Both the position numbers and the translations under genes were made by a program. This document shows, in pieces, positions 1,210-12,237 of a stretch of 36,768 nucleotides of DNA. Below the pieces are notes generated by a model that saw only the letters and a program-made list of their open reading frames with translations, was not told the origin of the DNA and ran no database searches. How positions within the stretch are numbered: the first letter of the stretch is position 1; each line of letters starts with the position of its first letter. Source of the DNA: Actinomycetota bacterium (GTDB taxonomy: Bacteria; Actinomycetota; Actinomycetes; S36-B12; UBA5976); the NCBI GenBank assembly GCA_009918005.1, contig RGDC01000004.1, positions 1 to 36,768 on the forward strand, given 5' to 3'.

Positions 1210-2476
1210 CTGCCGTCTTTGGCATTTCCCAAATCGCACTCGCTAAAACTGGTCCAACAATTTCAATCTGCCATGGGCGAGCGTTGTATTTTGCTAGAAC
1301 TTGCTGAAGTTCGGCGGGCGTTTCGGGTGGCGTCCACAAAATCCGGCGAATAGTTTCGGGCGTCATCAAGTTTTCAACTGGGAGCTCAAGTTTTTCCGCA
1401 ACCAGGGAAAGTTGCGAGCGGGCAAATTCCAGTCGGCGCCAAGCTTGAGGATTTCGCACTTCCCAGTTTCTCGGTGCTGGCGGTCCAGTAACTGGCAACT
1501 TTAAAGCGGGCAATTCTTCGTCTGGCAATTTATGTGCCCGCAGCGTTGCCGAGATCCAGGTATCAGAATGGCGTTTAACATTACGAAGATGCATAAATGA
1601 CAGTGTCTTTAACTCAGATTCCTTAGTTAATCCTGAGTTTGCCAAGGTCACAATATGTGAATCTGACAAAATCCGACCAGCAGCTATGTCTTGCTCACGC
1701 GCAACGGCATCACGGGCATACCAAACTTCGCGGATTACTGCTAGCGCTCTCGGTTTGCGAATAACGTGCATTCCAGAGGTACGCCGCCATGGATCTATCC
1801 GTTCAATCGGACCAGTTGTCCGCTTCACGTGATCAAACTCTTGAATCGCCCATTCATACTTACCTGCCGACTGTAATTGCGCTTCTAGCTCTTCCCACAA
1901 TTCAATTAAGAACTCAACATCGAGAGCAGCGTAGTTCAGCCAAGACTCTGGAAGTGGGCGAGTGGACCAATCAGCTGCGCTATGTTCTTTGGCGAGTGAA
2001 AAACCAAGTTGAGTTTCGATCAACGGTCCTAGCCCCACGCGAGGCAGACCTAAGAGACGACCAGCAAGTTCGGTATCAAATACATTGGCGGTTGGTACCA
2101 ACCCAACTTCAGCCAAGCAAACTAAATCTTGTGAAGCTGCATGCAAAATCCAGTCAACACCAATTAGGGCGTCTTGCAATGAAGCCAAATTCGGAAACAA
2201 AGTTGGATCTATGAGGTGTGAGCCGGATCCCTTGCGGCGTAACTGAATCAAGTAAGCACGCTGACTGTATTTGAATCCCGAAGCGCGTTCCGCATCTAAT
2301 GCCACTGGCCCGGTTCCGCGAGCAACTGCAGACACCAAGTCGACTAGTTGTTCTGGAGTAGAAACAATTGGTGGCAAACCGTCACGAGGTTCCGTTACTG
2401 GAATGCTTTCGATTTCGACGACTTCAGGGCTGGGCTGCTCCGTCACCACAAGGGGTGAATCAATATGTTCTGACAT
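1175..2476 (-). CDS. rnd: Ribonuclease D-like 3'-5' exonuclease with HRDC domain
   Basis: DEDD exonuclease motifs (VALDAERASGF, LHAASQDLVCL, YAALDVEFLIELWEEL) and an HRDC-like C-terminus. Convergent with dxs; 3' ends overlap. Confidence 0.92.
   Translation of the reverse strand: MSEHIDSPLVVTEQPSPEVVEIESIPVTEPRDGLPPIVSTPEQLVDLVSAVARGTGPVALDAERASGFKYSQRAYLIQLRRKGSGSHLIDPTLFPNLASLQDALIGVDWILHAASQDLVCLAEVGLVPTANVFDTELAGRLLGLPRVGLGPLIETQLGFSLAKEHSAADWSTRPLPESWLNYAALDVEFLIELWEELEAQLQSAGKYEWAIQEFDHVKRTTGPIERIDPWRRTSGMHVIRKPRALAVIREVWYARDAVAREQDIAAGRILSDSHIVTLANSGLTKESELKTLSFMHLRNVKRHSDTWISATLRAHKLPDEELPALKLPVTGPPAPRNWEVRNPQAWRRLEFARSQLSLVAEKLELPVENLMTPETIRRILWTPPETPAELQQVLAKYNARPWQIEIVGPVLASAIWEMPKTAASELPSLDPAQ
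1191..1220. terminator. Perfect 11-bp inverted repeat, candidate bidirectional terminator shared by dxs and rnd
   Basis: AAAGACGGCAG-TTCGCTAG-CTGCCGTCTTT: arms 1191-1201 and 1210-1220 are exact reverse complements. The A-rich 5' and T-rich 3' ends give an AAA...TTT layout in both directions. Confidence 0.6.
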
Positions 2477-2485
2477 AAATTATTG

Positions 2486-3061
2486 TTAGCGCTTTCGAGA
2501 AAGTGCAGTAACACCTTCCGGAAGCGGAGTTAATCCGGAACACTTTTCGACAAGTGCCAGCCAAGCCTGCATGTGCTTTGAGAGATCTTCAGAATCAGGA
2601 GACCAAGAAGCTCTAATTTCTAAATCGGTTTCAGTAGATCTATCTTCTAGGCCGGCAAATGATCGGGAAACGGTTCGAGTAACTGTTCCGGATGAGTTAT
2701 GGAAAAGTGCACCAGCGTCAGTTAATGCATCAGTTAGCCAAGACCAAGCTACTTCGTCAAATAGGTCATCAGTTACCACATCAGATTCCATGGGAGCTCG
2801 CACAAATGAAACGACGCGAAATGTGCCATCCCAAGTGTCCTGTCCTTCCGGATCATGTAAAACGATAAACCGTCCAACGGCTAACTCTTCATCGTCTGAA
2901 TCGACTGCCTCAACTGCAAGCGCAATACTGTGCGGAGCTAGGCGCTGGGGAGCTGGAACTTCCTCGAGTGTGAACTCTGTACGCAGAGTTGGATTCTGCA
3001 AACTGTCTAATGCAATCTGCCAAACGTCCACGTTTGAAGCACCCACCTTAGAAGAATTCAT
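2486..3061 (-). CDS. DUF3000-like actinobacterial conserved protein
   Basis: 191 aa ORF. Overall pattern (VAPQRLAPHSIALAVEA, GRFIVLHDPEGQDTWDGTFRVVSFVRA, DEVAWSWL) resembles the DUF3000 family next to RNase D in actinobacteria. Confidence 0.75.
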   Translation of the reverse strand: MNSSKVGASNVDVWQIALDSLQNPTLRTEFTLEEVPAPQRLAPHSIALAVEAVDSDDEELAVGRFIVLHDPEGQDTWDGTFRVVSFVRAPMESDVVTDDLFDEVAWSWLTDALTDAGALFHNSSGTVTRTVSRSFAGLEDRSTETDLEIRASWSPDSEDLSKHMQAWLALVEKCSGLTPLPEGVTALSRKR

Positions 3062-3115
3062 TATTTATAAGCGTATAAACAATGTTCTAGTTGTGGGCAC
3101 AGGCGCGCGGTCAGT

Positions 3116-3121
3116 TAGGCT
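3116..3121 (+). promoter_or_regulatory. Candidate -10 box TAGGCT, 6 nt upstream of the ATG of the DMT transporter
   Basis: TAGGCT-agcggg-ATG(3128). Spacing fits a leaderless transcript. Confidence 0.45.
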
Positions 3122-3127
3122 AGCGGG

Positions 3128-3955
3128 ATGCCTATCATTCTCGCCTTGCTTTCAAGTTTGATTTGGGGCTTGGCCGATTTCCTTGGCGGAACCCTGAGCA
3201 AAAAGCGAAAAGCTATTGCGGTCATCGGAGGCTCGCAATCATTTGGATTGCTATTCGCGATTATTTTGGCGTTGGTATTTGGCTTATGGACCTGGGATTC
3301 AACCGTATGGATTAACGGAGCTATTGCTGGAGCGATGGGTTTACTTGGGCTGGTGGGATTTTATACCGCCCTTGCCACCGGGCAAATGGGGATCGTGGCA
3401 CCAATTTCGTCCCTTAGTGCCGTAGTGCCAGTAATCATCGGGTTAGTTCAGGGTGAGCGGCCAGGTACATTGCAAGTTTCGGGAATTGTCATTGCCTTGA
3501 TTGGTGTGATTCTAGCTAGTGGACCAGAGCTAAATGGCAAAGTGGATCCGCGTCCTGTTTTCCTGGCACTGTTTGCCGCTCTGACTTTTGGTTTCTGTGT
3601 TTACTTCATGGCTAAGGGTGGCCAGATCAATCCCACTATGACAATTGCTGCTATGCGCGCAACACAGGTTGGCGTTGTCCTGATTCTGGCACTGGTTTTT
3701 AGGTCATTAGGGGGACTAATTAAGAACGACATTCCGCTTTTGGCCACGATAGGTGCAACGGATGCGGGTGCAAATATCCTCTTCGCTTTTGCCGCTTCAC
3801 TTGGGTTGCTGTCGGTGGTTGCGGTACTTGGATCGCTGTATCCGATTGTGACTGTTTTGTTGGCATGGTGGATACATAAAGAGCGATTGATTCCAATTCA
3901 GTATCTTGGCATCGTAGTGACGTTTAGTGGCGTAGCCCTAATTGCGATGGGATAA
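3128..3955 (+). CDS. EamA/DMT-family multi-TM transporter
   Basis: 275 aa, about 10 hydrophobic helices, duplicated EamA-like layout (LLSSLIWGLADFLGGTLSKK; LGSLYPIVTVLLAWWIHKERL). Confidence 0.88.
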   Translation: MPIILALLSSLIWGLADFLGGTLSKKRKAIAVIGGSQSFGLLFAIILALVFGLWTWDSTVWINGAIAGAMGLLGLVGFYTALATGQMGIVAPISSLSAVVPVIIGLVQGERPGTLQVSGIVIALIGVILASGPELNGKVDPRPVFLALFAALTFGFCVYFMAKGGQINPTMTIAAMRATQVGVVLILALVFRSLGGLIKNDIPLLATIGATDAGANILFAFAASLGLLSVVAVLGSLYPIVTVLLAWWIHKERLIPIQYLGIVVTFSGVALIAMG

Positions 3956-10068: not shown

Positions 10069-10587
10069 ATGTCAACTGATCCACGTGGACCACAAGCTTG
10101 GGACCGACTTTGGGCACCGCACCGTAAAGAATACCTAGTGGATGAGGCTGGAAACTTTAATGCGGATACTTGTCCGTTTTGTATTGCTCAAGGAGTTTCT
10201 GATTCTGAAGGCTTAGTAGTTGTTCGCCGAACTGCTGCATTTGTTGTTATGAACAAGTATCCATATAACAGCGGACACTTGTTAGTCTGCACGAATCGCC
10301 ATGTGGCGCTTTATGACGAACTTACTGAAGAAGAAGTTCTACAAATTGGCGAACTTACCGCGCAAGGAATGCGAACGCTTAGATCTGTCGCGAAAGCAGC
10401 AGGCTTTAACATCGGATTGAATCAAGGAAACGTTGCGGGTGCCGGAATCGCTGATCACCTTCACCAGCACATCGTCCCGCGTTGGGCTGGAGATCAAAAT
10501 TTCATGCCGATTGTTGGCGGCACAAAAGTTTTACCAGAATTGATTGAACAAACTCGCTTATTGCTCTCAGAAAGTTGGAGCGATTAA
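10069..10587 (+). CDS. HIT-family hydrolase/phosphorylase (Ap4A-type)
   Basis: HIT motif HLHQHIVPRW, GHLLVCTNRHVALYDEL, and CPFC...; directly downstream of thrS as in mycobacteria. Confidence 0.92.
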   Translation: MSTDPRGPQAWDRLWAPHRKEYLVDEAGNFNADTCPFCIAQGVSDSEGLVVVRRTAAFVVMNKYPYNSGHLLVCTNRHVALYDELTEEEVLQIGELTAQGMRTLRSVAKAAGFNIGLNQGNVAGAGIADHLHQHIVPRWAGDQNFMPIVGGTKVLPELIEQTRLLLSESWSD

Positions 10588-11601
10588 AACTGCAGTTGAG
10601 TTCCGAGTCCGAATGGTCCTACCTGGGGTCAAGTTTTTTGAAGCAATCACAACTCGATTTTCCTCTTCAATTTTAATTTGTCGTTCCGCCGAATCAATGT
10701 GCTCAAGTAAGTCATTTGGTTCGTCAGATCCCCACATCCGCACAAGGCATTCGGTAATCACTATCCCAATGCGTTCGACTGCATCAGTTGCCTCACAAAC
10801 CGTTGCACCATCAGAAAGTACTGGTATCCAAACCGGTGAGAGCGTACCGAGCCAATTGCTTAAGGTATCCACTCCTATGCCGTCATCGACTGGGGTAATG
10901 GTTACTACGTCAGGGTGTGACCAAGCGGCTTCGAGTTTTGTCACGCTAATTGGCAAACCAGATTGGTGATTCTCTAAAGTCGAATCATCTAAGCCAAGGT
11001 ATGCAAGTTGATCAAACAAATCTTCTCGCGCGGAACTTGTAATTGCGATGTGTTCAGGGTCAGCGGCCTTGGTAATCCAGGTTCCTTCAACAAAGGCGTG
11101 TATCTCACTAGTAAGAATGTCGTACACACCAGTCAATGAAAGTTCATCGTCGGAATCAATCGGAAGGTATCGAACCAATAAGTCTGGTTCTAAAACTCGA
11201 CTTGAGATTGCGCAAAGTTCATCGAAGTCAGCACGTCCACCCACGACATTAAATGCCAAAATATGTCTCGGCAGCGTGGCGTCGCGCGCCAAAGCCCATA
11301 GCTCAATAATCTTTGGATCAACACCAGCTGAGCCATCTAATGAAGCGATAAACGCATCGCAAGCCTCAAGGATTCTTGGGTCGCTCTGAGATGGTCGATG
11401 CACGATTGCAACTAAATTGGGATACTTTTCAAACTTGGCAAAAGTTGAGTCGGCACTCCAGGGTTTGGCCCCCATGTTGGCGTACACCTGTGCCAAGTCT
11501 GAAGTTTCTGAAGTAATTACATAGATCAGTACGTGCGGATGCTCAGTAGGCGCGCTTTGACTCGGTAACATCGACATATCCCTACGAATAGTAGCGGCCA
11601 T
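10567..11601 (-). CDS. Degenerate EF-G/translational-GTPase G-domain-like protein without recognisable nucleotide-binding motifs; function unknown
   Basis: 344 aa. DAFIASLDGSAGVDPKIIELWALARDATLPRHILAFNVVGGRADFDELCAI resembles the EF-G block '..DGAVAV.DA.AGVEPQTE..W..A....PRI.FVNK.DR.RADF'. REDLFDQLAYLGLDDSTLENHQSGLPISVTKLEAAWSHPDVVTITPVDDGIGVDTLSNWLGTLSPV resembles the end of the EF-G G domain. No GxxxxGK[ST], DTPGH or NKxD is present. An in-frame ATG nine codons in (M9) is an alternative start. Confidence 0.65.
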   Translation of the reverse strand: MAATIRRDMSMLPSQSAPTEHPHVLIYVITSETSDLAQVYANMGAKPWSADSTFAKFEKYPNLVAIVHRPSQSDPRILEACDAFIASLDGSAGVDPKIIELWALARDATLPRHILAFNVVGGRADFDELCAISSRVLEPDLLVRYLPIDSDDELSLTGVYDILTSEIHAFVEGTWITKAADPEHIAITSSAREDLFDQLAYLGLDDSTLENHQSGLPISVTKLEAAWSHPDVVTITPVDDGIGVDTLSNWLGTLSPVWIPVLSDGATVCEATDAVERIGIVITECLVRMWGSDEPNDLLEHIDSAERQIKIEEENRVVIASKNLTPGRTIRTRNSTAVLIAPTF

Positions 11602-12237
11602 TTGGCAGCAGAGGAACTCATCGTGCTTGATAACGCGAACGCGCGTCGTTCACTGGCGCGACTTATCGACCCGATTGCAAGGGCTTTGTTGCGTCTACAC
11701 GTAACTCCAGATGGAATTACGTGGTTTGGATGTGCGGCAACGGTTGCTATCTCAATAGTTTTCTTGGCGCAGGGGAAATTCTTGGTTGGATCAATTCTTT
11801 TTGGTGCCTTCAGTTTGATCGATCTTCTAGACGGAACTATGGCTCGGATGCTGGGCACATCTGGACCTTGGGGTGCATTTTTAGATTCGACATTAGACCG
11901 GATTTCGGATTCGGCAGTCATTTGCGCCTTGATCTACTACTACGTGAACTCATCCGGCGACAATCACCAGTTGGCTGTCATCGCTGGAATAGTTTCGCTA
12001 GTAATGAGTTTGCTAACTTCTTATGCTCGAGCTAAAGCAGAGTCACTCGATGCAACTTGCACAGTTGGTATTGCAGAACGAGCTGAGCGTAATCTCATTA
12101 TCTGGATCGCTCTAGTATTCTCTGCGTTTATTGCCGACATAACCCCATATGCACTTGCCATACTTGCTGTTGCATCGACTGTCACCGTAATTCAACGAAT
12201 CCTTTTCGTCCGTAAGCAATTGGTGCGACAAGTTTGA
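11602..12237 (+). CDS. pgsA: CDP-alcohol phosphatidyltransferase, likely phosphatidylinositol-phosphate synthase
   Basis: CDP-OH-P motif DLLDGTMARMLGTSGPWGAFLDSTLDRISD (DxxDGxxAR-x8-GxxxDxxxD). Start TTG 11602, or GTG 11623 (MLDNANARRSLARL). Confidence 0.9.
   Translation: MAAEELIVLDNANARRSLARLIDPIARALLRLHVTPDGITWFGCAATVAISIVFLAQGKFLVGSILFGAFSLIDLLDGTMARMLGTSGPWGAFLDSTLDRISDSAVICALIYYYVNSSGDNHQLAVIAGIVSLVMSLLTSYARAKAESLDATCTVGIAERAERNLIIWIALVFSAFIADITPYALAILAVASTVTVIQRILFVRKQLVRQV

Follow-up and report, generated by a model that had tools for sequence, protein, structure and literature searches.

The G-prime subdomain of EF-G has been defined (PMC3150367), and its acidic region binds the L7/L12 stalk (PMC3150367); the C-terminal domain of bL12 contacts EF-G as well as other factor GTPases (PMC12548414). 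The EF-G2 of M. smegmatis binds nucleotides and shows no ribosome-dependent GTPase activity (PMC3150367). The stretch of DNA analysed here (the window) comprises 36,768 nucleotides of contig RGDC01000004.1 from an Actinomycetota bacterium, and carries an open reading frame that is a degenerate EF-G2 (FusA2), with a similarity far above chance. This gene, pseudo-EF-G2, arose in place from a full-length EF-G2 by loss of domains III-V, of the G1, G3 and G4 motifs and of part of domain II, and is under purifying selection. Comparison of sequences and gene order suggests that in small-genome actinobacteria the EF-G2 gene has been repeatedly shortened in place, with selection still preserving its product. 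The features of the locus, in window coordinates, are as follows.

10069..10587, plus strand: HIT-family gene, convergent with pseudo-EF-G2, the 3' ends overlapping.
10567..11577, minus strand: pseudo-EF-G2 gene; the conserved ATG gives 336 aa, the ATG at 11601 would give 344 aa; evidence from the ORF, the conserved start and dN/dS.
10570..10824, minus strand: putative shortened domain II remnant, residues ~252-336, under relaxed constraint (pN/pS 0.26-0.58).
10912..11235, minus strand: G-prime subdomain, inserted between G4 and G5; no part is better retained across independent short forms than its first half.
10963..11058, minus strand: residues 174-205, acidic helices of G-prime, which remain negatively charged in all short clades.
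11083..11247, minus strand: strongest purifying selection, residues 111-165 (pN/pS 0.02-0.09 in 11 of 14 pairs).
11242..11256, minus strand: G4 position, AFNVV replacing (T/N)KxD.
11380..11412, minus strand: switch II (G3) position, VAIVHRPSQSD replacing VNLIDTPGYAD.
11494..11538, minus strand: P-loop (G1) position, PHVLIYVITSETSDL, the glycines and the Walker lysine gone.
11623..12237, plus strand: pgsA, divergent from pseudo-EF-G2, with 45 bp between the probable start codons.

An earlier note on this DNA had placed an open frame at 10567-11601; these coordinates were exact and the strand is minus, the plus frame of the same span containing many stops and the peptides quoted in that note occurring within the minus-strand frame. 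At the position of residue 9, orthologues have a conserved ATG, mostly as M-[ST]-M-L-P, so the true start is probably at 11577, giving a product of 336 aa. Within 11602-11623, comparison with a relative points to GTG 11623 (MLDNAN...) and not TTG 11602 as the probable start of pgsA.

The NCBIfam EF-G2 model (NF009377) matches the window protein over residues 78-224 only (E 2.8e-10), its 39.2 bits not reaching the curated cut-off of 890 bits. A Pfam search with the single window protein returned no family above cut-off; GTP_EFTU (PF00009) did not match it and weakly matched 11 of 22 orthologues (best E 8e-4), and a C-terminal match to LAL_C2 (E 0.005), which stayed under the threshold and recurred in only 2/22 orthologues, was taken as chance. 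Aligned with hhalign to full-length EF-G2, the 22-member same-genus alignment reached 99.5% probability (E 3e-23, 176 columns), and the profile of these orthologues retrieved EF-G structures from the PDB, with M. smegmatis EF-G2 (chain 9k0z) first (1.3e-10). An AlphaFold model built from the 22 same-genus sequences alone, full-length EF-G2 having been left out of the alignment, gave a pLDDT of 88.1 and a pTM of 0.86. Its top Foldseek matches were all EF-G (best E 4.5e-19, ~380 aligned columns) and included M. smegmatis EF-G2 (TM by query 0.71) and N-terminal EF-G fragments that comprise G and II (residues 1-~406; TM by target ~0.61). By model and structural search the protein thus has an EF-G-like G domain fold, as the earlier note had proposed; with EF-G and EF-G2 the best matches by profile and by Foldseek, an unrelated fold is ruled out. 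A viral origin was also considered, and viral contigs gave no relative of pseudo-EF-G2.

The nucleotide-binding motifs are missing, as previously claimed: the motif search of the window protein found no GxxxxGK[ST], no D[TS]PG and no [NT]KxD. Walker A and DTPG are both carried by 29/29 full-length EF-G2 relatives and neither by any of the 35 short forms of the order; both are likewise missing from 22/22 same-genus orthologues and from 20/20 short forms examined in family f31 of another order. G4 is a weaker marker, strict [NT]KxD being kept by only 16/29 full-length relatives. The conventional GTP-binding motifs are therefore gone from the short EF-G2 descendants, as judged from their sequences. 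The fold is nevertheless that of a G domain, and one short form, in genome G062 (locus L067, 391 aa frame, oriented 2215-3387), is transitional, lacking domains III-V and keeping TKLD and a near P-loop, GSAGSGRSS, with the Walker lysine changed to arginine. A GTPase or nucleotide binder that works through non-canonical motifs is nonetheless highly improbable, the least probable of the readings considered, given the joint loss of G1, G3 and G4 in the window clade and the retention of only 0-0.07 of the conserved EF-G2 residues at switches I and II.

Retention, defined as the fraction of conserved full-length EF-G2 residues still found in the short clades, was 0.11-0.24 for G1, 0-0.06 for switch I, 0.04-0.07 for switch II, 0.30-0.45 for the interval from G3 to G4, 0.46-0.58 for the first half of G-prime, 0.28-0.41 for the G-prime helix and 0.01-0.15 for domain II. 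G-prime, between G4 and G5, is thus present in the window protein, as indicated by these values and by the 176 columns of the hhalign alignment. The mean charge of its helix is -4.5 to -5.3 in short clades versus -5.8 in full forms; the most conserved stretch is formed by the G-prime strands (residues 111-165) and not by the acidic helix itself. The earlier note had taken the protein to finish roughly where the G domain does, domains II-V apparently being absent. Domains III-V are indeed missing from the gene, but the C-terminal 85 residues are best modelled as a putative shortened, fast-evolving domain II, because Foldseek alignments include EF-G fragments spanning G and II and because two intermediates align to this region of EF-G2 (G080, 423 aa, at model positions 128-444; G047, with a second match at 411-443). 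In the window protein this C-terminus is short and beta-rich, with a sequence retention of only 0.15. A domains III-V query against the searched genomes strongly matched canonical EF-G only, with weak matches to other full-length GTPases, which rules out a split gene with III-V encoded elsewhere, a test that rests on relatives, since in the draft genome of the window itself nothing matched, even canonical EF-G.

Selection was assessed from NG86 dN/dS, which was 0.07-0.13 for same-genus pseudo-EF-G2 pairs where computable, far from 1, as compared with 0.02-0.07 for HIT and 0.05-0.10 for pgsA; synonymous sites are near saturation in many of these pairs, and the G013/G021 pair, with a dS of 0.30, gave 0.066. 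Constraint is tightest at the start of G-prime and relaxed in the domain II remnant; across residues 111-165 the three most divergent pairs reached a pN/pS of 0.22-0.34. Identity within the genus ranges from 25 to 79%, and the aligned protein of 22/22 same-genus orthologues is free of internal stops.

The gene had been regarded as extra between HIT and pgsA, and this did not hold. A full-length EF-G2 lies near pgsA in 14/14 other genomes of the class, sampled from different families, mostly directly adjoining pgsA, with HIT and thrS usually close. On this gene order, full-length EF-G2 beside pgsA is taken as the ancestral arrangement, and since it ancestrally sits there the gene is read as truncated in place, which rules out an inserted gene. 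Across the order, the slot between HIT and pgsA holds a full EF-G2 (29 examined), a short form (35) or nothing, and in most genomes the gap is ~2.2-3.8 kb, 0.84-1.3 kb or 2-50 bp, respectively, with exceptions of 130-155 bp in G061 and G073. Orthologues searched for at this locus were found as short forms in 22/22 same-genus genomes with the locus assembled; one genus mate, G017, has no short form and also no match to this pgsA. Genus g8, in the same family, has a full-length EF-G2 (G029:C153:2000-4060 and G034:C77:4346-6406, in genome coordinates) and pgsA on separate contigs, with HIT and pgsA 4 bp apart, which points to relocation or reacquisition.

A class-wide search recovered a second short form, frames of ~200 aa in family f31, whose genomes are mostly 1.2-1.9 Mb and many of them single-contig. 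These frames lie between HIT and pgsA in 20/20 loci fetched, which were chosen because they matched and so do not amount to a census. The f31 profile aligned to EF-G2 with 99.8% and to the window family with 99.6% probability, and the AlphaFold model (pLDDT 88.8) matched EF-G in Foldseek, with TM by query up to 0.79. All 20 copies are open frames, close pairs (dS ~0.1) gave a dN/dS of 0.08-0.13, and the second, helical half of G-prime is largely missing. A longer f31 form of 354 aa (L147:3866-4927, G489) also aligns, weakly, to a second region in the C-terminal part of EF-G2 (model 646-692), which may reflect an internal deletion and not a simple truncation.

In a quick tree of thrS, HIT and pgsA, with SH-aLRT support only, genomes with a short form, a full gene or an empty slot are interspersed, and a minimum of 6 changes is required to account for the label 'short'. 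G054, which has a full-length gene, clusters with G062, G089 and G058, which have short forms, and G085 (full-length) with G074 and G080 (short). Because of this interleaving, several in-place truncations are suggested, which implies, at the level of sequence, independent events that each erased G1-G3 and kept G-prime and the acidic helix. The G-prime gene tree, by contrast, unites all short forms (89/95), as a single origin would, although long branches meet there; against this stand the changes required on the locus tree and AU tests in which neither G054+G062 (p 0.34) nor G085+G074+G080 (p 0.42) is rejected. Fewer origins combined with transfer is the alternative that the gene tree would favour, and it is not preferred here.

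That the short gene is a remnant now without function, slowly decaying in shrinking genomes until it is lost, would fit the relaxed domain II, the relatives in which the gene has disappeared entirely (gaps of 2-50 bp) and the ~1 kb gaps of G053 (L102) and G065 (L095), in which no EF-G2 relative was detectable. G050, of the same genus as these two, has a full EF-G2, and their gap is perhaps a later stage of decay. A dN/dS of ~0.1, frames open in 22 same-genus and 20 f31 copies and confidently predicted folds nonetheless make a dead remnant very unlikely; with the constraint on G-prime, they agree with the earlier view of a retained pseudo-GTPase.

It is proposed that G-prime is the working part, its EF-G counterpart carrying the acidic region that binds the C-terminal domain of the bL12 stalk. 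Pseudo-EF-G2 would then dock on this stalk, or on another ligand of G-prime, without a GTP cycle; because it lacks domains III-V it could not enter the decoding site, and its effect would be that of a competitor, buffer or tether when factors are recruited, not that of a translocase. That the in-place EF-G2 descendant is such a nucleotide-independent, putative bL12-docking protein is given an even chance. G-prime could, however, have been retained for fold stability instead of bL12 binding, its acidic helix is less conserved in identity (0.28-0.41) than its strands, and the f31 forms mostly lack its helical second half. The same descent might instead have led to a role unrelated to the stalk, the protein serving another partner as a structural scaffold or regulator; one such role could lie in membrane-lipid synthesis, beside pgsA. 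In its favour are the divergent arrangement with pgsA, with just 45 bp between the two in the window, the fast divergence within the genus and the placement of the strongest conservation in the G-prime strands rather than in the acidic helix alone, but adjacency to pgsA says little on function because it was inherited from full-length EF-G2, and every short clade has kept its G-prime helix acidic; such a role is considered possible, if well short of evenly likely. Returning to stalk docking, the broader proposal that streamlined actinobacteria, probably abundant in fresh water, have repeatedly made nucleotide-free regulators of factor recruitment from EF-G2, through loss of nearly all except a putative stalk-docking G-prime, is held tentatively, at somewhat less than an even chance.

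The locus amounts to a natural, repeated deletion experiment on EF-G2, which has left G-prime standing on a dead G domain. Should G-prime prove to be the useful part, these proteins would offer a small, testable object for the question of EF-G2 function in actinobacteria and a handle on how cells tune factor competition for the bL12 stalk. A literature search, without most subscription papers, found no paper on the pseudo-EF-G2 protein and no repeatedly reduced pseudo-GTPase of bacterial translational GTPase descent. With EF-G2/FusA2 (EFG II, NF009377), pseudo-EF-G2 shares descent, the pgsA-side locus, the G fold, G-prime and, putatively, the start of domain II, but it is without G1, G3 and G4 and without domains III-V, is less than half the length and scores 39 bits against 890. 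M. smegmatis EF-G2 (MsmEFG2; 70S complex 9k0z) belongs to the same subfamily and has the highest TM by query among the solved matches listed; unlike pseudo-EF-G2, it retains the full length (709-residue chain) and can still bind nucleotides. Among other EF-G paralogues, ribosome protection proteins of the TetM/TetO type, mitochondrial EF-G2/RRF2 and RF3 share the EF-G-like G domain, with weak profile or fold matches, and are full-length GTPases. Pseudo-GTPases are known from eukaryotic families, and with pseudo-GTPases generally pseudo-EF-G2 has in common a G fold devoid of nucleotide motifs and probably kept for non-catalytic work.
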